A stretch of 64,000 bases of DNA, from contig CAIFEV010000010.1 of assembly GCA_903789615.1 (NCBI GenBank), forward strand, positions 8,566 to 72,565, in the 5' to 3' direction. The notes below the pieces were generated by a model, which had not been told where the DNA came from, ran no database searches, and saw nothing but the letters and a program-made list of their open reading frames with translations. Positions 1 to 63,780 of the stretch are shown here, one piece after another (position 1 is the first letter of the stretch; each line of letters starts with the position of its first letter). The DNA comes from an uncultured Lachnospiraceae bacterium (GTDB lineage: Bacteria; Bacillota; Clostridia; Lachnospirales; Lachnospiraceae). The translations under genes and the position numbers were made by a program.

Positions 1-190
1 TTCCGGTGCGGAGCGGGTGTCATCGGAATGTGTCACCTAACTTGCTTCCCGATGCGCAGCGGCTTCCGGTGCGGAGCGGGTGTCATCGGAATGTGTCACC
101 TAACTTGCTTCCCGATGCACAGCGGTCTCCGGTGGTGGAGCGGGCGGCATCGGAAACTTTCTGGGAACCTGAATCCCGATGCGTGGAGGT
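1..190. repeat. 63-bp-period hairpin array L1 (upstream of btuF)
   Basis: Two near-identical 63-bp units (1-63 and 64-126) are followed by a diverged third (127-190). Each unit holds an inverted repeat, CATCGG (21, 84, 148) with CCGATG 28 bp further on (49, 112, 176). The loop is 22 nt, and in the first two units it contains AACTTGCT. The array probably begins before the window edge. It belongs to the same family as the repeats at 17581-17992 and 22681-22974. No protein-coding meaning is evident, although the units stay open in one frame. Confidence 0.85.
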
Positions 191-6868: not shown

Positions 6869-8561
6869 AGCGCAGGGGGCGCTCTGCAGCGGGTATCTTT
6901 TTGACCGCTACACCTGTGCTCATCTTGCACCGTTTCACGACGGAAAAGCGCTGGTGCGGGATGCATTTGCCGAGAGGGCGCCGCTTGTCTTTATCAGCGC
7001 CGCCGGCATTGCCGTCCGTCTCATCGCGCCGTTTGTGAAGGACAAGAGTAAGGACAGTCCGGTCCTTGTGATCGATCCGGACGGGCGTTACGTGATCCCG
7101 ATCCTCTCCGGACACATCGGCGGCGCGAATGCCCTGGCGGAGCACCTCGCCGGGGCACTAGGTGCTGCGGCTGTCCTTACGACGGCGACCGATACACAGG
7201 GGCGCTTTGCCGTGGACACATTTGCGGTGCAGCATGACTGCGCGATTTCCGACTTGAAGGCGGCTAAGGAAATTTCCGTGAGGGAGCTTGCGGGTGAACC
7301 GGTGCGCATCTGGGCGGACCCGCAGGTAAGGGGGCTGTTCCCCAGGCTGCAGGGCCGCCTTGCATCAGAACGTGCAGGCGCCGATGTTGTGATTTCCATG
7401 AAAACAGCGGAAGCGGAAAGAAGCGGCGCGCTGCACCTCATTCCGAGGCGGCTTGTCGTAGGCGTGGGCTGCCGGAAAGGCGCCGGGAAAGAGGATATCC
7501 TCGCGGCAATCAGCGGTACACTGCGTGAAGCCGGGTACGATCCTAAGGCTGTCTGCGCGCTCACCTCGATTGACAGAAAGGCAGACGAGCCGGGACTTCT
7601 GGCAGCGGCCAAAGCGTTAACCGTGCCGTTTCTGACCTTTCCCGCCGCGACGCTTTCGCAGGCGTCGGGCAGTGTCAGCCCGTCTTCCTTTGTAAATGAG
7701 GTCACGGGCGTAGACAACGTGTGCGAGCGAAGCGCGCTTACGCTTGGGACTAAGCTTCTGATACAAAAGACGGTGAAATGCCATGTGACCGTCGCCGCGG
7801 CGCTCACGGACTTTGAATTTCTGCTGTTTGGCGGGACGACGGAAGGAAAGGAACTGACGGAATTCCTGGAGCAGACGCACCGGAAAAGCCTTGTGCTCGT
7901 GGCGACCCCCTACGGCGCTGCCGTCCTGCCGGAAGGGATGCGCTGGGTAAGAGTGCTTTCCGGGCGGCTTGACGGGGAGCAGATGGAGAAGCTTTTTGCT
8001 CTCACGCGCCCGCGGTGCATTATCGACGCAACGCACCCCTATGCCGAAAAGGTGAGCACTGCGATCCGCGCCGCGGCCGCAAAGACCGGAAGAAAAGTTC
8101 TGCGCGTGAAGCGGGAGGAGACGCCGGAAATCGGGGGTGCCGCGTACTTTGGCAGCGCGGCTTCGGCTGCGGAGTTTCTTTCCCGCACGGACGGGAACAT
8201 CCTGCTCACGACGGGCAGCAAGGACCTGTCCGTGTACACAGGCGTGCGGGAGGCAGGGAAGCGCCTGTACGCAAGAGTCCTGCCGCACTCGGCTCAGGCT
8301 GCCAGAGAAGCAGGCATACCGGAGGACCATATCCTGACTGGAGAGGGACCATTTACCATGGAGGAAAATGTCCGCGCGATCCGGGAGTGCGGAGCAAGGT
8401 TTCTAGTGACCAAGGATTCGGGCGCGCCGGGAGGCATGAAAGAAAAGGTGCAGGCGGCAGGGAGCTGCGGCTGTGCCCTGCTCGTCATAAGGCGCCCGCG
8501 GGAGGAGGCATGTGACGCGGTAAGCGTGCCGCGCTGTAAGGAGGTGCTTCGTGATCTGTGA
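6738..8561 (+). CDS. cbiGJ: Cobalt-precorrin-5A hydrolase / cobalt-precorrin-6A reductase fusion
   Basis: This is a 607-aa fusion. Residues about 15-350 are CbiG (SGHIGGANALAEHLAG, then VVGVGCRKGAGKEDI of the C-terminal domain), which opens the delta-lactone and releases acetaldehyde. From about residue 358 (FLLFGGTTEGKELTEFL) to the end is CbiJ, the NAD(P)H-dependent precorrin-6A reductase. Start choice is unsettled: TTG 6738 or GTG 6741 has GGGAGG 6-9 nt upstream, while ATG 6750 and 6768 lack a good site. All choices overlap cbiF. The stop overlaps cbiA by 11 bp. Confidence 0.88.
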   Translation: MVTNMTGQNCMIRDFLPGTACPIRLLTYTQAGAQTAGKLIRYLEAQGALCSGYLFDRYTCAHLAPFHDGKALVRDAFAERAPLVFISAAGIAVRLIAPFVKDKSKDSPVLVIDPDGRYVIPILSGHIGGANALAEHLAGALGAAAVLTTATDTQGRFAVDTFAVQHDCAISDLKAAKEISVRELAGEPVRIWADPQVRGLFPRLQGRLASERAGADVVISMKTAEAERSGALHLIPRRLVVGVGCRKGAGKEDILAAISGTLREAGYDPKAVCALTSIDRKADEPGLLAAAKALTVPFLTFPAATLSQASGSVSPSSFVNEVTGVDNVCERSALTLGTKLLIQKTVKCHVTVAAALTDFEFLLFGGTTEGKELTEFLEQTHRKSLVLVATPYGAAVLPEGMRWVRVLSGRLDGEQMEKLFALTRPRCIIDATHPYAEKVSTAIRAAAAKTGRKVLRVKREETPEIGGAAYFGSAASAAEFLSRTDGNILLTTGSKDLSVYTGVREAGKRLYARVLPHSAQAAREAGIPEDHILTGEGPFTMEENVRAIRECGARFLVTKDSGAPGGMKEKVQAAGSCGCALLVIRRPREEACDAVSVPRCKEVLRDL

Positions 8562-9957
8562 CACACCGAGAATCCTTGTCGCGGGGACGGGGAGTGGCTG
8601 CGGAAAGACGACGGTGAGCATGGCGCTTCTGGCGGCGCTGAAAAAGCGCATGAATCTGCGGGCGTTCAAGTGCGGGCCGGACTACATCGACCCGATGTTT
8701 CATGAGCGCGTGCTTGGCGTCCCCTGCAGCAGTCTGGATTCCTATCTGCTTTCCGCGGACACGGTGCGGTATCTGTTCTCCGAAAACAGCCGGGGTGCGG
8801 ATCTTGCCCTGATCGAGGGCGTGATGGGATACTTCGACGGCCTTGAAAACGGCGAAACGGGCAGTACGCACGAGATTGCGAAGATCCTGAAGACGCCTGT
8901 CATTCTGGTGCTTGACTGCCGGGGAAAGAGCCGGTCAGCCGCGGCGGAACTCCTGGGGTTCAGAACGTTTGCGGACGACGGGCTGATAGATGGCGTCATT
9001 TTCAACGAGGCCTCACCCGGAGTGGCGGACACGCTTGCACAGTTTGCCCGTCAGATGGGGATAACGCCGCTCGGGTATATGCCCCGCATGAAAGAGACGC
9101 TGGCGAGCCGGCATCTGGGCCTGGTCACGCCGGACGAGGCGGCGGGGCTGCAGGCGCAGATAGAAAGCTTAAGGCAGGCGGCCGAAGCGACGATTGACCT
9201 CGGAAAAGTTGTGCAGCTGGCAAGGGAGGCTGCGCCGCTTGACGCGCCGGAAGTGACGCTGATGGCGGGAGCGGGAAATTTCACGGCGGGTGCGGAAGAG
9301 ATACATGACCGGACGGGCACTTCCGACGGGGAGGTGCGGATCGGTGTGGCAAGAGACGCGGCGTTCTGCTTTCTTTACGGGGACAACCTGAGACTGCTGG
9401 AGCGGTTCGGCGCCGAACTGGTGTACTTTTCCCCTCTGAACGAAAAAAAACTTCCGGACAGGATTTCCGGGCTGTACCTTTGCGGCGGGTATCCGGAGCT
9501 TTACGCGCGGGAACTGTCCGAAAACAGGACGATGTCAGCGGATGTACGGCGCGCCGCACTGCGCGGCATGCCGGTGTTTGCGGAGTGCGGAGGTTTCCTG
9601 TATCTGCATGAGAAGCTTTCGGATCCGGAGGGGCAGATGTACGGGATGGCGGATGTGATTGCTGCAAAGGCGCGCTTCACGGGAAAACTGCAGCATTTCG
9701 GGTACGTCACCATGCGGGCCGGGAAAGACACGCTGCTGCTTGAGAAGGGAGAATGCGTGCGCGCCCATGAGTTCCACCGGACCGTTTCAGACGCTGTACA
9801 GGACGCCTTTACCGTATGCAAAGGCACCCGTCAGTGGGGCGGATACGTGGCGGAGGGGAACCTGCTCGCGGGTTACCCGCACGTGCACTTCTGGTCGGAC
9901 CCGCACATGGCGGCACGATTTGTTGGCAAATGCAGAGAGTGGGCGGCTTCGCGGTGA
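8551..9957 (+). CDS. cbiA: Cobyrinate a,c-diamide synthase
   Basis: This 468-aa ATP- and glutamine-dependent amidase acts on the a and c carboxylates. The N-terminal P-loop domain has GTGSGCGKTT (about residue 10) and KCGPDYIDPMF. The C-terminal class I glutaminase-like domain has GGYPELYARELSENR and the nucleophile Cys of FAECGGFLYL (about residue 346). The GTG start lies behind AAGGAGG. The gene overlaps cbiGJ and is followed by cbiC after 25 bp. Confidence 0.92.
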   Translation: MICDTPRILVAGTGSGCGKTTVSMALLAALKKRMNLRAFKCGPDYIDPMFHERVLGVPCSSLDSYLLSADTVRYLFSENSRGADLALIEGVMGYFDGLENGETGSTHEIAKILKTPVILVLDCRGKSRSAAAELLGFRTFADDGLIDGVIFNEASPGVADTLAQFARQMGITPLGYMPRMKETLASRHLGLVTPDEAAGLQAQIESLRQAAEATIDLGKVVQLAREAAPLDAPEVTLMAGAGNFTAGAEEIHDRTGTSDGEVRIGVARDAAFCFLYGDNLRLLERFGAELVYFSPLNEKKLPDRISGLYLCGGYPELYARELSENRTMSADVRRAALRGMPVFAECGGFLYLHEKLSDPEGQMYGMADVIAAKARFTGKLQHFGYVTMRAGKDTLLLEKGECVRAHEFHRTVSDAVQDAFTVCKGTRQWGGYVAEGNLLAGYPHVHFWSDPHMAARFVGKCREWAASR

Positions 9958-17534: not shown

Positions 17535-17580
17535 TGCTGCGCGGCGATGGGTGGCAGCATTTTCGGAAAAAGGAGAGTGT

Positions 17581-17992
17581 CAGCGGGATTTCTTTGGAGA
17601 TGTTCATTCCGATGCGCGATGTGTCCCCGGAAAGAAACTCTGTCATCGGGAATATCTGGCAGCCTTGAAATTTGATGATTTTTTCACCTTCACGAAACAG
17701 GCCTATCATCGGAGCATTTCAGGCTGAAGAATTCCCGATGATAGAAAACCCTTCTGGAAGGGAAATGAATCAGCGGAAATGTCTGTAACTTGCTATTTTG
17801 ATGACGGAAAGACCTTTTTGGGGTCAAAATCGCATCGGAAGCAGGCACAGAAAGAAATTTCCGCTGACAGGCATCCAGAGGGAAGGGCAGGAAAGCATCG
17901 GGATTACTCATATAACTTGCTTCCCGATGCGCGGAGGAATCCGGATAGGGGCGGCTGTCATCGGGGATGTATCACGAGTCAGTTTCCCGATG
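17581..17992. repeat. 63-bp-period hairpin array L2, seven units
   Basis: This array fills most of the 17535-18070 gap. First half-sites CATCGG/CAGCGG start at 17581, 17644, 17707, 17771, 17833, 17896 and 17959. Second half-sites start at 17609 (CCGATG), 17672 (TTGATG), 17735 (CCGATG), 17798 (TTGATG), 17861 (CCGCTG), 17924 (CCGATG) and 17987 (CCGATG). Spacing between half-sites is 28 bp (27 once) and unit spacing is 62-64 bp. At 17644/17672 the change to TTGATG keeps pairing through G-U wobbles. Some loops contain AACTTGCT. The same family occurs upstream of btuF. Confidence 0.85.
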
Positions 17993-22594: not shown

Positions 22595-22680
22595 AAGGCC
22601 TGAGACGCTTTCCCGCTCTGAACAGCTTGCGTCTGTCAGCTTTGAATTTTGCGCTTTTCAGCTCTGTATTTTGTTCCTGT

Positions 22681-22974
22681 CAGCGGAAATGATTTTGCGT
22701 GGGCAAATCGATGATTTTTTGCCCGCTTTTGGCAGTTTCCGTCATCGGACAAGCAAGTTACAGGATGTTTCCGCTGTCGATCCCCCTCAAATCAGCCTTT
22801 AAAATCATCAAAAACACGGCTCCTGGCTGCTTCCGATGAAAGCCGCTTCGCGGAAAACGAAAAAACGCATCGGGATTGACGGCAGAAAATCAATCCCGAT
22901 GCGTCAAATAAGCCTGGACACAAGTCCGGACAACTGTCGTTCATCAAAAACAAATATATACGCAAATTCCGATG
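22681..22974. repeat. 63-bp-period hairpin array L3
   Basis: This array occupies the 434-bp gap between two convergent genes. Half-sites: CAGCGG 22681, CATCGG 22743 with CCGCTG 22771, CATCAA 22806 with CCGATG 22833, CATCGG 22868 with CCGATG 22896, and CATCAA 22942 with CCGATG 22969. Spacing is 27-28 bp within units and about 62-63 bp between most units, with more indels than the other arrays. A loop at 22750-22759 contains AGCAAGTTAC. Confidence 0.7.
22865..22904. terminator. Perfect 15-bp inverted repeat, possible bidirectional terminator
   Basis: ACGCATCGGGATTGA (22865-22879) is the exact reverse complement of 22890-22904, with a 10-nt loop. It is the strongest unit of the L3 array and lies between convergent genes. 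On the minus strand the stem is followed by TTTTTCG; on the plus strand no T-run follows, so termination is more likely for the minus-strand gene. Confidence 0.6.
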
Positions 22975-34069: not shown

Positions 34070-34366
34070 TTTCAGCAAAAGGCTCGATTTATATCAATCT
34101 CGCTGATTATTTTATAGGATATTTGCATACATTTAAGCAAAACAAGGAGTTCCTGCTGCTTCCGCTTATATTTTCACAGGATTCGGCGCGTAAAATCCAG
34201 CGGAAAGCAGGTTGGTGCCAATTTTAGCTGAAACCGTCACGGAATCTACCCCTGAACATTCAGCAAAAAGCAAGTTGGGGTCCATTTTAGCTGAAACCGT
34301 CATCGATCCGGCTCCTTCAATTCAGCAAAAAACAAACTACTGGAAGCCATTCCGATCTTCTGAATA
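34070..34366. repeat. 63-bp-period hairpin array L4
   Basis: This array lies in the 613-bp gap between the glycosidase and the DeoR gene. First half-sites start at 34070 (TTTCAGC), 34132 (TTTAAGC), 34195 (ATCCAGC), 34258 (ATTCAGC) and 34320 (ATTCAGC). Second half-sites start at 34102 (GCTGATT), 34165 (GCTTATA), 34227 (GCTGAAA), 34290 (GCTGAAA) and a displaced TCTGAAT at 34359. Spacing is 32-33 bp within the first four units. TTTAAGC/GCTTATA looks like a compensated stem. A loop contains AGCAAGTT. Confidence 0.75.
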
Positions 34367-43100: not shown

Positions 43101-44208
43101 AATAAACAGGACCATAGGCGTATGCCGTTTCGTGTACAACTTCTATCTTGCACATAACAGAGAGCTTTACGAATCCGGGAAGAAGTTTATGACCGGGAAA
43201 GACTTCAGCAAGTGGCTCAACAACAGCTACCTGCCTGACAACTCCGATAAGGCATGGATAAAGGAAGTCAGCTCGAAATCGGTAAAACGCTCGCTCGAAG
43301 ACGGATATGCAGCATTCAGGAAGTTCTTCGACCATAAGGCTGGATACCCGAGATTCAAGAAGAAGGACGTGTCCGACCCGAAGATGTACTTCGTGAGAAA
43401 TAATCCAGGTGACTGTTTCTGCGAACGCCACAGGATAAAAATCCCTACTCTGGGATGGGTACGGCTCAAGGAAAAAGGCTACATCCCGACAGCGAAAGAC
43501 GGATATAGCATAAAAAGCGGCACCGTGTCAAAGCAAGCCGGAAGATACTATGTATCTGTCCTGATAGATATTCCGAGTCCCGAAAGGGACAAAAACAATT
43601 ACGCTGATCAGGGGATAGGCATAGACCTTGGCGTAAAGGAACTTGCCGTATGTTCCAGCGGAACGGTTTACAGGAACATCAACAAGACGGCAAAGGTGAA
43701 GCAACTGGAAAAGCAGTTACATCGTGCACAGCGGTCGCTGTCACGGATGTACGGGAACTTAAAGAAAGGAGGAGCTACCCAAAGAAAAAACATATCAAAA
43801 CAGAAGCTCAAGGTACAGAGGATCTATAAGAGGATGAATGACATCCGCACCGATTACATGAACAAGACCATCTCGGAGACGGTGAAAACCAAACCGCCAT
43901 ACGTAACGCTTGAAGACCTTAATGTAAGAGGAATGATGAAGAACAGGCATCTTTCAAAGGCTGTAGCAGGACAGAAGTTTCACGAGTTCAGGACAAGGCT
44001 TACTGCAAAATGCCACCAGAACGGCATTGAGGTGCGTATCGCGGACAGGTTCTACCCGTCGTCAAAACGCTGTCACTGCTGCGGGAAAGTCAACAGAGGG
44101 CTGAAGCTTTCAGACAGGATCTTTCGTTGCGAATGTGGCTATGTCGCTGACAGGGATTTTAATGCCAGCCTCAATCTGAGAGATACCGAAGCCTACAGCA
44201 TCGCATAG
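43048..44208 (+). CDS. TnpB, RNA-guided nuclease of the IS200/IS605/IS607 group
   Basis: This protein is about 386 aa from TTG 43048 (GGAGGACGAGGAAA upstream; the protein then starts LKSYKTEINPT, as TnpB usually does). The three RuvC acidic residues are present: GIDLGVKE (Asp), TLEDLNV (Glu) and ADRDFNAS (Asp). Between the last two lies the zinc ribbon CHCCGK...CEC. It appears full length and potentially active. TnpB proteins use an omega-RNA from the element's right end to cut target DNA and help retain the element. Confidence 0.9.
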   Translation: MLKSYKTEINPTPEQRLKINRTIGVCRFVYNFYLAHNRELYESGKKFMTGKDFSKWLNNSYLPDNSDKAWIKEVSSKSVKRSLEDGYAAFRKFFDHKAGYPRFKKKDVSDPKMYFVRNNPGDCFCERHRIKIPTLGWVRLKEKGYIPTAKDGYSIKSGTVSKQAGRYYVSVLIDIPSPERDKNNYADQGIGIDLGVKELAVCSSGTVYRNINKTAKVKQLEKQLHRAQRSLSRMYGNLKKGGATQRKNISKQKLKVQRIYKRMNDIRTDYMNKTISETVKTKPPYVTLEDLNVRGMMKNRHLSKAVAGQKFHEFRTRLTAKCHQNGIEVRIADRFYPSSKRCHCCGKVNRGLKLSDRIFRCECGYVADRDFNASLNLRDTEAYSIA

Positions 44209-44275
44209 GAAAGCGGCTATAGGCATGTACCGATGGCTAGTCGGGAATTTACGGCTATGGAGTGTACATGAACTT
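44195..44275 (+). ncRNA. Possible omega-RNA at the right end of the IS607 element
   Basis: The segment overlapping and following the tnpB stop contains nested pairing: CATGTAC (44224-44230) with GTACATG (44264-44270), and inside it TAGTCG with CGGCTA. Position and structure fit the guide RNA scaffold that TnpB systems encode at this end, with the guide read from flanking DNA. This is inferred from position and folding only. Confidence 0.45.
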
Positions 44276-44390
44276 GTGAGTAGCAGTAACATCGCCAAAG
44301 CATACACAATGAAATAGCAAGAATGTTCCGTGAGGAATACGATTCTCGATGTGATGAGTATGTTTTATCACATTTTGAGTAGCAGCGGCA

Positions 44391-53242: not shown

Positions 53243-53441
53243 CGCATAAGCCAGCACCGGTGCATGGCGGTTTTGCGTGCTTGCACGCAAAAATGCGCCG
53301 GCACCGGGTGCGGCAACGGAAAACCGCATGGAGCCGTGCGGAGCATGGCTGGAATGCGGTTTTCCGTTAGCGGCGCGAAGAGCTGCCGCAAGGCAGCGCA
53401 GCGACGCGTGGCTTATGCGCTTATAAAGCCAGCACCGGTGC
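53243..53441. repeat. Nested palindromic element with closing stem and three internal hairpins
   Basis: GCGCATAAGCCA (53243-53254) is the exact reverse complement of TGGCTTATGCGC (53409-53420). Inside are TTTTGCGTGC/GCACGCAAAA, a perfect 15-bp pair AACGGAAAACCGCAT/ATGCGGTTTTCCGTT, and GCTGCC/GGCAGC. AAGCCAGCACCGGTGC occurs at both ends (53248 and 53426) as a direct repeat. It may be a nonautonomous mobile element or a structured leader of the Crp/Fnr gene. Confidence 0.7.
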
Positions 53442-61009: not shown

Positions 61010-61690
61010 ATGATTTACTGTGTTGAGGATGACGAGGCCGCCGGCAATCTGGAGGCCTACGCACTGGAGACATCGGGATACGGGGTAGAGCTGTTTTCGG
61101 ACGGCAAGAGCTTCTTTCATGCGCTGGCAGGTGAGCGCCCGGAGCTGGTCCTGCTGGACATCATGCTTCCCGGAGACGACGGGATTACCATTCTGCGAAA
61201 ACTTAAGGGCGATCCGGTGAGCGCAGACATCCCCGTGATCATGACCACGGCAAAGGGGACGGAATTCGACAAGGTGCGGGGACTGGACCTCGGGGCGGAT
61301 GACTATCTGGTCAAGCCGTTCGGAATGATGGAGATGGTCTCGAGAGTGCGCGCGGTACTGCGGCGCACATCCGCGAAGACGGCGGAGGCGCCGGTGCTTG
61401 CCGCGGGCGGCGTCAGTGTCAACCGGACGGAGCACACGGTGACGGTGGACGGCGAGAAGGTGGACCTGACGCTCAAGGAATACGGCTTGCTGGAGCTGTT
61501 CATGGAGTACCCCGGCAGGGTGTTTGACCGGGAGACGCTGCTGGCCCGCGTCTGGAACTCGGAGTACACCGGCGATACGCGCACGGTGGATGTCCACATC
61601 GGGACCCTGCGCACAAAGCTGGGGCGGTACGGCGGTCTGATTCAGACCATCCGCGGCCTGGGCTACAAGCTGGAGGCTGACGCCTCATGA
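61010..61690 (+). CDS. phoB: Phosphate-regulon response regulator, OmpR/PhoB family
   Basis: The 226-aa protein has an N-terminal receiver with acidic pocket EDD (6-8), phosphoacceptor Asp50 (LLDIMLPG) and Lys102 (LVKPFG). The C-terminal OmpR-type winged helix has LTLKEYGLLELFMEYPG and TVDVHIGTLRTKLG. It most likely activates the pst operon under phosphate limitation. It overlaps phoR by 4 bp (ATGA). Confidence 0.9.
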   Translation: MIYCVEDDEAAGNLEAYALETSGYGVELFSDGKSFFHALAGERPELVLLDIMLPGDDGITILRKLKGDPVSADIPVIMTTAKGTEFDKVRGLDLGADDYLVKPFGMMEMVSRVRAVLRRTSAKTAEAPVLAAGGVSVNRTEHTVTVDGEKVDLTLKEYGLLELFMEYPGRVFDRETLLARVWNSEYTGDTRTVDVHIGTLRTKLGRYGGLIQTIRGLGYKLEADAS

Positions 61691-63378
61691 CGAGACAGAT
61701 TTTCAAACACATGCTGATTCTGATCACGGTCGCGCTCCTTGTGGCGTTTACGGCGGTGCTGGGAATTCTGTACAGCTACTTCGGCGTGGTCCAGGAAGGG
61801 CAGGTGAAGGCTGAGGCGAAGCTGGCGGCGCAGGCGGTAGAGGCGGAAGGCATTTCGTATCTGGAAAATCTGGATCCTGACACCACGCGTGTGACGCTTG
61901 TCGCATCTGACGGACAGGTCATCTATGACAGTGAGGCTGACGCTTCGACTCTGGAAAATCACGCCGACCGCCCGGAGATAAAGGAAGCACTTGTTAGCGG
62001 CGAGGGCATGAGCACCCGTTTTTCGGGCACGCTTCTCAAGTCCTTTGTCTACTGTGCCGAGCGGCTGTCTGACGGGACGGTGCTGCGCATCGCGGAGCCA
62101 AGAGACACGGCGTTAAATATCGCGGCGGGGATGGTGCCATTTGTTCTGATGCTTCTCATCATCCTGATGGTGTGCATGTGGTTTGCCGCCAGACGCGTCG
62201 CGGCGCGGATAACGGAACCGCTCAACCGGCTCGACCTGGATCACCCGATGGAAAATGACGAGTACGAGGAGATCAGCCCGCTGCTTAAGCGCATCTACGC
62301 CCAGCAGAAGCAGATTGCGGATGAGAAGGGCCGCCTGGTGCGGATTGAGCGGGATTTCACGGCGGTTACCCAGCATATGGCGGAAGGTCTGATACTGCTT
62401 GACGAGGAAGGCCGCGTCCTGAACATGAACAACAAGGCCGGAAAGCTTCTGAATGCCGGCGATGTCTATATAGGCATGGACATCCTGGCGCTGGAGAGGC
62501 GCGAAAAGTTCCGGGAGATCCTGGCCGGGGCGCTCGAGGAAGGGGAACACGGCGAGGCGATCCTGCCGTATGACCGGCTCAGCTATCAGGTGGACGTGAC
62601 TCCTGTCATGGACGGGAAAAAGGTCATCGGAACGGTTGTGCTGCTCTTTGATGTCACGGAACGAGAGACGGCAGAGCAGATGCGCCGCGAATTCACGGCC
62701 AATGTATCCCATGAGCTCAAGACCCCCCTTCACACGATCTCCGGCTGTGCGGAGATGCTGGAGAGCGGCGGTGTGCGGCCGGAGGATCAGAAAAAGTTTG
62801 TGCACCTGATCTACACGCAGGTGCAGCGCATGATCACACTGGTTCAGGATATTCTGTACATCTCGCATCTGGATGAGGGGGCGGTTGACATGAGCTGTTC
62901 GCGGATCGATATGTGTCTGATGGCGGACAAGGTCATCGAGAGCCTGTCGCAGGAAGCTGAGAAGAAGCATGTGGGTGTCAGCCTCGATTCAGACGGCGAG
63001 GTCATCTATTACGGCGTGGCGAGGCTGACGGAGAGCATTATCTTCAACCTGATCGACAACGCCATCAAGTACAACAAAGAAGGCGGCGAGGTGCATGTTC
63101 GTCTTCGCGCCGCGGCTCATACGATTACGCTGCAGGTGTCGGACAACGGAATCGGTATCCCGGAGGAGGACCAGACCCGGATCTTCGAGCGGTTTTACCG
63201 GGTCGACAAGAGCAGGTCGCGGGAGATCGGCGGCACCGGCCTCGGACTGGCCATTGTCAAGCACGCCGCGATGCTGCAGAACGCGCAGATCAGGCTTGAC
63301 AGTCAGCCCGGGCGGGGCAGCACCTTCACGGTCGTCTTCCCGGAGAAGGCTACGGATGAGGCAGAGGCGGCGGTGTGA
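61687..63378 (+). CDS. phoR: Phosphate-regulon sensor histidine kinase
   Basis: The 563-aa membrane kinase has TM1 (about 9-32), an extracytoplasmic sensor (about 33-140), TM2 (about 142-165), a HAMP-like linker, a PAS-like domain (about 215-330), then HisKA with FTANVSHELKTPLH (phospho-His) and an HATPase domain (NLIDNAIKYNKEGG; GIGIPEEDQTRIFERF; GGTGLGLAIVKH). This architecture matches PhoR. The operon context with PhoU suggests signal input from the Pst transporter. Confidence 0.9.
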   Translation: MTRQIFKHMLILITVALLVAFTAVLGILYSYFGVVQEGQVKAEAKLAAQAVEAEGISYLENLDPDTTRVTLVASDGQVIYDSEADASTLENHADRPEIKEALVSGEGMSTRFSGTLLKSFVYCAERLSDGTVLRIAEPRDTALNIAAGMVPFVLMLLIILMVCMWFAARRVAARITEPLNRLDLDHPMENDEYEEISPLLKRIYAQQKQIADEKGRLVRIERDFTAVTQHMAEGLILLDEEGRVLNMNNKAGKLLNAGDVYIGMDILALERREKFREILAGALEEGEHGEAILPYDRLSYQVDVTPVMDGKKVIGTVVLLFDVTERETAEQMRREFTANVSHELKTPLHTISGCAEMLESGGVRPEDQKKFVHLIYTQVQRMITLVQDILYISHLDEGAVDMSCSRIDMCLMADKVIESLSQEAEKKHVGVSLDSDGEVIYYGVARLTESIIFNLIDNAIKYNKEGGEVHVRLRAAAHTITLQVSDNGIGIPEEDQTRIFERFYRVDKSRSREIGGTGLGLAIVKHAAMLQNAQIRLDSQPGRGSTFTVVFPEKATDEAEAAV

Positions 63379-63427: not shown

Positions 63428-63719
63428 ATTCAGCTGATTTCTTGTATTTTGACCGAATTGCTGAAAATACGAAGCGGTTAGTCATGGCTGATTCAGCAAT
63501 TTTCTTGATTCTAAGATTCATAGCTGAATAAAAAGCGAAGTTAGAAACTGCTAATTCAGCTGCCTGGTTGCTACAAAGCAAAATAGCTGAATTCCCGGCG
63601 AAAAACCTGCGTAAAAATTCAGCAAAGAACTGCGGAGACAGATTCTTAGCTGAATGACGGTTCATAGGAAGACTCGAAATTTCAGCGGATAGCCGCCTGA
63701 ACGGGCGGTTTCGCTGAAT
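63428..63719. repeat. 63-bp-period hairpin array L5, five units
   Basis: ATTCAGC starts at 63428, 63491, 63554, 63617 and (as TTTCAGC) 63680, exactly 63 bp apart. GCTGAAT or GCTGAAA starts at 63460, 63523, 63586, 63649 and 63713, which leaves 25-nt loops (26 in the last). Consecutive half-sites are therefore 31-33 bp apart along the whole array. The loops and the 24-nt spacers differ in sequence between units. It begins 50 bp after phoR. Confidence 0.9.
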
Positions 63720-63733
63720 TCCGGGTCTTTTTT
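63680..63733 (+). terminator. Last unit of array L5 acting as the pst-pho operon terminator
   Basis: The unit has an inner GCCGCC/GGGCGG-type stem (around 63692-63710) inside TTTCAGC/GCTGAAT and is followed by CCGGGTC and seven T. No other terminator follows phoR closely. Confidence 0.7.
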
Positions 63734-63780
63734 TATGATTCGGCAAATGGACCTGGTTTGCCAGTTGCCGGAACACAAAA

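Follow-up and report, generated by a model that had tools for sequence, protein, structure and literature searches.

The stretch of DNA analysed here (the window, 64,000 nucleotides) derives from the genome of an uncultured Lachnospiraceae bacterium (G000, 2.45 Mb). Towards its right-hand end an array of short inverted repeats at 63428-63719 lies between a sensor histidine kinase gene (Table 1) and a gene that, judged by eye, starts at about 63910 on the strand of the histidine kinase gene. The array consists of five inverted pairs of TTCAGC and GCTGAA at 63-bp steps, three of the five units being perfect and two deviating. TTCAGC starts at 63429, 63492, 63555, 63618 and 63681, and GCTGAA at 63460, 63523, 63586, 63649 and 63713; the longer word ATTCAGC starts at 63428, 63491, 63554 and 63617 (63 bp apart) and GCTGAAT at 63523, 63586, 63649 and 63713. 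An initial annotation of this DNA had described an exact 63-bp period with GCTGAAT falling 32 bp after each ATTCAGC. The 63-bp steps of ATTCAGC are correct, but exactness extends to three of the five units only; the 32-bp offset applies to units 2-4, while unit 1 ends in GCTGAAA and unit 5 begins with TTTCAGC and has its inverse 33 bp on.

Table 1. Coordinates of array units, arrays and adjoining features in the window
Feature	Position	Strand	Description
Sensor histidine kinase gene	61687..63378	+	HisKA, HATPase_c and PAS; upstream, ends 50 bp before the 63428-63719 array
Unit 1	63428..63466	.	ATTCAGC-N25-GCTGAAA; one deviation in right arm
Unit 2	63491..63529	.	ATTCAGC-N25-GCTGAAT
Unit 3	63554..63592	.	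ATTCAGC-N25-GCTGAAT
Unit 4	63617..63655	.	ATTCAGC-N25-GCTGAAT
Unit 5	63680..63719	.	TTTCAGC-N26-GCTGAAT; one additional base in loop
Terminator-like extension of unit 5	63670..63734	+	AGAC...GTCT closing stem, then T run (fold; by eye)
Second TTCAGC-type array	34071..34295	.	Other subfamily; units at 34071, 34196, 34259
Seven-unit array	17579..17992	.	CAGC and CATC half-sites mixed; unit starts 62-64 bp apart
CATC/CAGC array	22680..22902	.	Linked units at 22741, 22804, 22866; 22680 weaker
End of CATC-type array	1..182	.	Units at 19, 82, 146

The array is far from a chance assembly of words. With up to two mismatches allowed, ATTCAGC-N25-GCTGAAT has eight matches in the window against 0.31 expected, a count reached by none of 100 dinucleotide shuffles of the window; four of the eight lie in the 63428-63719 array, three in the array at 34070-34296 and one is a stray at 43307. 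Throughout the genome of origin the exact ATTCAGC/GCTGAAT pair with N20-30 occurs at 11 places, all of them within three arrays, and its reversed-orientation control at 0 places. The array thus stands: genome-wide, the pairs are not found at random spacings, and the period is not confined to this site. The further claim that loops and spacers differ while their lengths stay fixed is confirmed, since at fixed length the mean pairwise identity is 0.29 among the four spacers and 0.37 among the first four loops. CRISPR arrays are alike in having repeat-like words and unique spacers of constant length, but here all five units share TTCAGC/GCTGAA alone, no near-identical repeat of 24-48 bp is conserved and the family is dispersed; CRISPR was rejected. 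By contrast, a CRISPR-like array with a period of 67 bp and about 16 copies is found in the congener G009 (L141 518-1618); the 67-68 bp signal of that genome comes from this array and is unrelated to the 63-bp arrays.

The array at 63428-63719 is a member of a dispersed, mostly intergenic array family. Four more arrays lie in the window (Table 1), and the CATC-type array at its left edge extends upstream (G000:C10:~7936-8465), followed by an N-run assembly gap at 8466-8565 (L020). The genome contains two further homologues of the 63428-63719 array, at C7:28889-29169 and C7:67705-68066, as well as arrays of different sequence and the same geometry. Sixteen sampled 20-kb stretches beyond the window yielded five arrays in three of them (two in L123, one in L131 and two in L132), a count that may miss arrays whose half-sites have diverged. 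What recurs is the architecture, an inverted pair of 37-38 bp with a period mostly of 62-64 bp, and the words vary between arrays. According to crude ORF calls, 35 of 40 arrays are not wholly within a called ORF, and there is no clear excess of arrays between convergent genes (16 of 40, compared with 47 of 164 gaps).

In the analysed stretches of six genomes 225 linked units of 37-38 bp were found; removal of redundancy by identity reduced these to 97 units, 144 spacers to 36 and 47 TTCAGC-type units to 26. The half-site consensus learned from the linked units is [T/G]CANCGGAAA. Its forms are CAGC, CATC and CAAC, at times mixed inside one array, and TTCAGC represents the CAGC form, its tail having diverged. 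The C, A and C of CANC are nearly invariant, which is partly a selection effect because the matrix and the later scans required or favoured CANC. The half-site is asymmetric and its orientation alternates about every 31.3 bp, or three helical turns. Flanking the half-site pattern with GGAAAT on both sides produced no match, this pattern being either too strict or badly spaced.

A spacing of 62-64 bp predominates in six array-bearing genomes belonging to four genera. Distances to the next unit of 62, 63 and 64 bp number 12, 27 and 5 in G000, 4, 12 and 1 in the congener G005 and 21, 18 and 0 in the congener G007, where three distances of 61 bp and also 60 bp occur; the corresponding numbers are 5, 0 and 0 in G231, 13, 18 and 3 in G238, and 4, 0 and 0 in G214. 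G238 further has 11 steps of 51 bp, between similar copies, and G231 five of 59 bp and one of 60, the 59s stemming from alternative scan starts 3 bp off. The spacers of the seven-unit array at 17579 are 31% identical and hold 29-30 bp between half-site cores. Within the four family-1 arrays, the family of the 63428-63719 array, half-site columns are 83-88% identical and the remainder 62-73%, a contrast that is understated because, on our reading of the alignment, one unit beyond the shared part was counted into the half-site columns. The letters of spacers and loops drift, while lengths and the helical phase of A/T-rich stretches, described below, are kept.

The distribution of the architecture is sporadic; outside G000 it turned up, with other words, in three further genera and in two of the ten congeners that were searched. 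Genomes were counted with the pattern CANCGGAAN{16,19}TTCCGNTG, which is blind to arrays made of other half-site words. At least one place with this pattern exists in 82 of 299 genomes of the family, but at least 10 places only in G000 (19), G238 (28) and G231 (10); G214 has five, some of them 62 and 124 bp apart. Among the congeners, G005 has 14 places and G007 has 92, G009 and G010 have one each, and G001, G002, G003, G004, G006 and G008 have none, several of the assemblies with 0-1 places being just 70-88% complete. Linked units were likewise absent from samples of G002, G008, G009 and G010. At the level of the class, 52 of 391 genomes (a set that includes G000) match the pattern, and G000 alone does so more than three times. 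A scan of named genomes for the same words returned 73 stretches, and of the 12 loci inspected five are arrays like that at 63428-63719, all from Lachnospira sp. UBA4285 (G005; NCBI lineage Lachnospiraceae); of the other seven, two are coding-like, two contain an array of short palindromes and three have a different repeat in common. The bacterium Verrucomicrobiales bacterium Gx481_bin94 (L028, L041, L062, L066, L091) has a dispersed inverted repeat with TTCAGC/GCTGAA words, of which three of the five loci were inspected and have one common sequence, unrelated to the 63-bp arrays. In Pyrinomonadaceae cam-2 (L039 3440-3640, L080 5380-5560), dense short palindromes with TTCAG and TGCTGAA roughly 20 bp apart represent a different repeat made of similar words. 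An origin from phages or plasmids was rejected, as blastn of the 63428-63719 array against plasmids and phages gave no match; in 23 viral stretches matching half-site patterns (15 + 8), no two units lie within 130 bp.

The spacing of the half-sites follows the turns of the DNA helix. Measured from the point between C and A of CANC, the distance is about 31.3 bp for half-sites that face each other and for those placed back to back alike. Of 39 non-redundant pairs with their distances, 19 are period multiples (124-128, 188-189, 250-251), and two were further removed (one of two 51-bp events of G238 and one pair across the N run of L020). The 18 off-period distances that remain cluster at multiples of 10.4-10.5 bp (Rayleigh R 0.66, p about 4e-4), with four of the 18 (59.5, 60, 81, 161) off the helical multiples; out of 20,000 jittered sets each time, 8 clustered as well on an identical period grid and 14 on a coarser null grid.

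The base composition between the half-sites is phased as well. Over the 97 non-redundant units, AAA/TTT has peaks at about 0, 10, 21 and 31 bp from the centre of the unit, and the sixth harmonic holds 53% of the harmonic power (k 1-15). Outside the half-sites the phasing has a z of 12.5 at 10.42 bp, compared with 1.8 at 12.5 bp and -2.2 at 8.93 bp, and by genome it amounts to 6.8 in G000, 7.4 in G005, 7.8 in G007, 1.8 in G238 and 3.1 in G231. The 26 TTCAGC-type units alone, with only the six-base words masked, reach a z of 8.0, and the eight non-redundant family-1 units alone are weakly phased (z 2.6). The peak at 21 bp has a strand polarity (0.20 for outward T, 0.02 for outward A), and this part of the signal may stem from T-tracts of the terminator kind or from a half-site that extends further. 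This polarity fits bidirectional terminators, but the signal in the middle of the spacers escapes such a reading: in 36 strictly non-redundant spacers the central 17 bp are phased with a z of 4.15, reached by none of 3000 shuffles, clearly so in G000 (2.9) and G005 (2.6), at 1.6 in G007 and without significance in G238 and G231.

Every unit is an inverted repeat, and the arrays might therefore act as chains of RNA hairpins or as tandem bidirectional terminators at gene ends. The last unit of the 63428-63719 array looks like an intrinsic terminator (Table 1); its terminator-like extension is missing from the output of a simple terminator scan, and the T-rich tail is kept in the paralogue C7A and in UBA4285 array L093 and mostly lost in C7B. 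T-tracts flank units with terminator-like polarity. Single CANCGGAA-type palindromes that look like bidirectional terminators also occur in other Lachnospiraceae genera (L195 1477-1510, L197 1013-1047, L199 1480-1513); those of L195 and L197 are followed by T-tracts and adjoin tRNA-like genes as judged by eye. A palindrome of this type is a possible ancestor of the array unit. However, the T-tract directly after each stem that tandem intrinsic terminators need is not found: one follows, on either strand, 19 of 97 non-redundant units (7 of 42 in G000, 2 of 2 in G214, 4 of 10 in G238).

Taken whole, the 63428-63719 array is more stably folded than shuffled sequences (z -5.7, 0 of 100), as the inverted half-sites alone would ensure, and real units out-fold unrestricted chimaeras in G000 (-7.1 against -5.6), G005 (-9.5 against -6.0), G238 (-11.7 against -10.9) and G231 (-11.1 against -10.4), but not in G007. 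When the variable base of CANC is held fixed, re-paired arms fold nearly as well (-8.16 for real units against -7.80, over 87 units, the 10 of 97 in classes of fewer than three being excluded). The gain is not significant, 28 of 300 re-pairings being at least as stable on the plus strand (z -1.36) and 64 of 300 on the minus strand (z -0.79), and it is strongest in G005 (z -1.94). The variable base agrees within units in 68 of 97 cases against 47.6 expected; it agrees, however, equally well across spacers (111 of 142, as against 108 of 142 within units; 16 and 14 of 41 in G007) and is thus a property of the array rather than of pairing. Compared with re-paired arms of the same genome, the inner arms have no excess complementarity (z -0.7), and no compensatory stem changes, that is no pairing-specific covariation, were seen. 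No Rfam family matches over the 63428-63719 array at the gathering threshold. There is, moreover, no evident reason for an RNA to keep spacer length and 10.4 bp phasing. The lack of covariation or folding gain, the helical multiples among the off-period distances and the A/T phasing at 10.4 bp place the pattern of spacing, half-site identity and A/T helical phase at the level of DNA. The chain of RNA hairpins proposed earlier retains the terminator-like last unit and the good fold of the whole array but is weakened by the lack of covariation and folding gain and by the 78 of 97 units without a T-tract, and an RNA or terminator function for the arrays is considered unlikely. A coding repeat (63 bp being 21 codons) was rejected: a minus-strand frame is open in 63428-63719, but stops or changes of frame interrupt its homologues in C7A and C7B.

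The number of units varies between relatives. The histidine kinase junction has five units in G000 and seven in G005 (three of them near-identical), and none in G007, where the same two neighbours are present; the array at this orthologous junction is therefore not indispensable. At C1:118599 one unit in G000 compares with five near-identical direct copies in G005 (L042), and L034, with an expanded unit, is a second case of recent tandem expansion. Arrays thus appear and disappear, and they grow via tandem duplication of the 63-bp unit. Recent tandem copies, the empty junction in G007 and the sporadic distribution would be expected of a selfish or neutral satellite, in which a REP-like palindrome has spread and been tandemly duplicated; the period of about 63 bp would then be a legacy of the founding unit that has yet to decay. 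Such an origin is unlikely, since the spacers have diverged almost to saturation and yet vary in length by no more than 1-2 bp, the same period is found in four genera and the A/T phase is kept in non-homologous spacers. The decayed satellite with half-sites under selection, another option of the initial annotation, agrees with the expansions at L034 and L042; not only the half-sites, however, but the lengths too have been kept.

Neighbouring genes suggest no candidate for a binder. A scan of 20 genes adjoining or close to arrays left five without a Pfam match, and those recognised, such as SAM synthetase, MreB, ThiC, NAPRTase, CobD, an epimerase and the histidine kinase, are all ordinary; the neighbours examined have no gene in common. 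A very array-rich region, G007:C15:27887-39646 (L216, L217), contains arrays of 13, 12 and 14 units surrounding SAM synthetase, MreB and genes whose Pfam matches are weak or absent.

The view that the array belongs to no described class was too strong, as REP and BIME extragenic palindromic repeats are described and of a similar kind. Like these (PMC3733652), the arrays are built of short palindromes in many copies, mostly intergenic and clustered at regular spacing, and they agree with the description of REPs as extragenic palindromes of 20-40 bp. They differ in that the half-sites alone are conserved rather than the whole palindrome, and in that the units follow one another as direct repeats at a constant six turns, with A/T-phased spacers. 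The GTAG or CGTC terminal tags that, according to PMC3733652, define two large super-families comprising most REPs are absent from the consensus of 97 non-redundant units. Where BIMEs alternate the orientation of their REPs, array units share one orientation (e.g. L042) and it is the half-sites that alternate. Membership of the arrays in REP/BIME is therefore not claimed.

An associated REP-associated Y1 transposase (RAYT) that mobilises the arrays as REP/BIME elements would account for their being intergenic, palindromic and multicopy, and long-form Y1 proteins (frames of 261-338 aa), which we read as RAYTs, are present in G231, G238 and G214. But of the array-bearing genomes, G000 has Y1 frames of the short, IS200-like form alone (139 and 160 aa, besides a fragment), G007 has short ones only, and in G005 (83% complete) none was found; long-form Y1 proteins are also present in G002 and G014, both with 0 pattern places. 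Six Y1 loci were scanned (L235, L238, L239, L242, L243, L244); an isolated palindrome lies near one of them, and no array near any. Mobilisation by a RAYT is accordingly very improbable.

In function, the closest analogue of the arrays is the gyrase-binding BIME-2 of E. coli. If gyrase itself were the binder, a special case of the platform reading given below, the arrays would be preferred wrapping and cleavage sites that act as a supercoil sink between transcription units, as in BIME-2. Gyrase is expected in all relatives, yet most searched genomes are without pattern places. In E. coli, the GC content of gyrase sites is phased at 10.75 bp along a motif of 130 bp, which the authors interpreted as DNA wrapping, and the sites are over-represented in BIME-2 (PMC6379681); roles of BIMEs as protein platforms and in supercoiling have been proposed (PMC3733652). 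The gyrase motif and the arrays are alike in their symmetric, helix-phased base composition over more than 100 bp, and the A/T phasing of the arrays at 10.4 bp speaks for gyrase. The E. coli motif, however, is long and degenerate with a period of 10.75 bp (PMC6379681), whereas the arrays have a nearly invariant C, A and C in CANC (in part through selection) and a period of about 10.4 bp, repeated over hundreds of bp. Gyrase as the binder thus appears rather improbable.

The arrays may be platforms for a putative protein that polymerises on one face of the DNA or wraps DNA, a reading to which we assign a probability of about 0.55. The earlier suggestion of a DNA-binding protein on one helix face gains support from the period shared by four genera, the helical multiples among off-period distances and the A/T phasing at 10.4 bp. 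Each half-site would be contacted by one subunit of the putative sequence-specific protein. Because the half-sites lie on one helix face, dimers could bind side by side, polymerise or wrap the DNA, and in a wrapped state the A/T-rich minor grooves would face inward. Such a platform may fix local supercoiling or insulate adjoining transcription units; the more units, the stronger the platform would be, and unit number shifts by tandem duplication. More tentatively, a putative architectural protein might read CANCGGAAA half-sites every three turns in alternating orientation and form filaments or wraps at intergenic arrays, which would amount to a site-specific, quantised bacterial chromatin. It is similarly conceivable, if doubtful, that array length in this chromatin is tuned by unit number and that some Lachnospiraceae possess it as a dispersed chromosomal system.

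Many dispersed bacterial repeats have no known binder and follow no known rule beyond palindromicity. In the arrays the sequence itself states a rule, namely half-sites every three turns and an A/T phase of 10.4 bp, with length kept and letters drifting. This rule makes a DNA-level function in wrapping or polymerising directly testable; the array can serve as bait for the protein, and 0, 5 and 7 units at one gene junction represent natural alleles. Phased protein sites on one helix face that nucleate nucleoprotein assembly are familiar from SopC, the ParR iterons and the Lrp sites in pap, which are three turns apart. The 63-bp arrays resemble these plasmid centromere and operator arrays in their regular phasing on one face; however, SopC, the ParR iterons and the Lrp/pap sites are single loci with a known binder, whereas the 63-bp arrays are dispersed over the chromosome and their examined neighbours have no gene in common.

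No description of such repeats in Lachnospiraceae was found in PMC full texts, a weak result as papers were judged by title and the start of the abstract and subscription literature lies mostly outside PMC. The terms 'Lachnospira' and 'Clostridi' are absent from PMC3733652, as are 'Lachnospir' and 'Clostridi' from PMC12306157. The window also holds repeats and RNAs of other kinds: four copies of a 23-bp repeat at 199-290 lie before and across the start of a periplasmic-binding-protein gene, and Rfam matches to Clostridiales-1 RNA and RAGATH-18 are found at 53246-53416 and 44254-44320, respectively.
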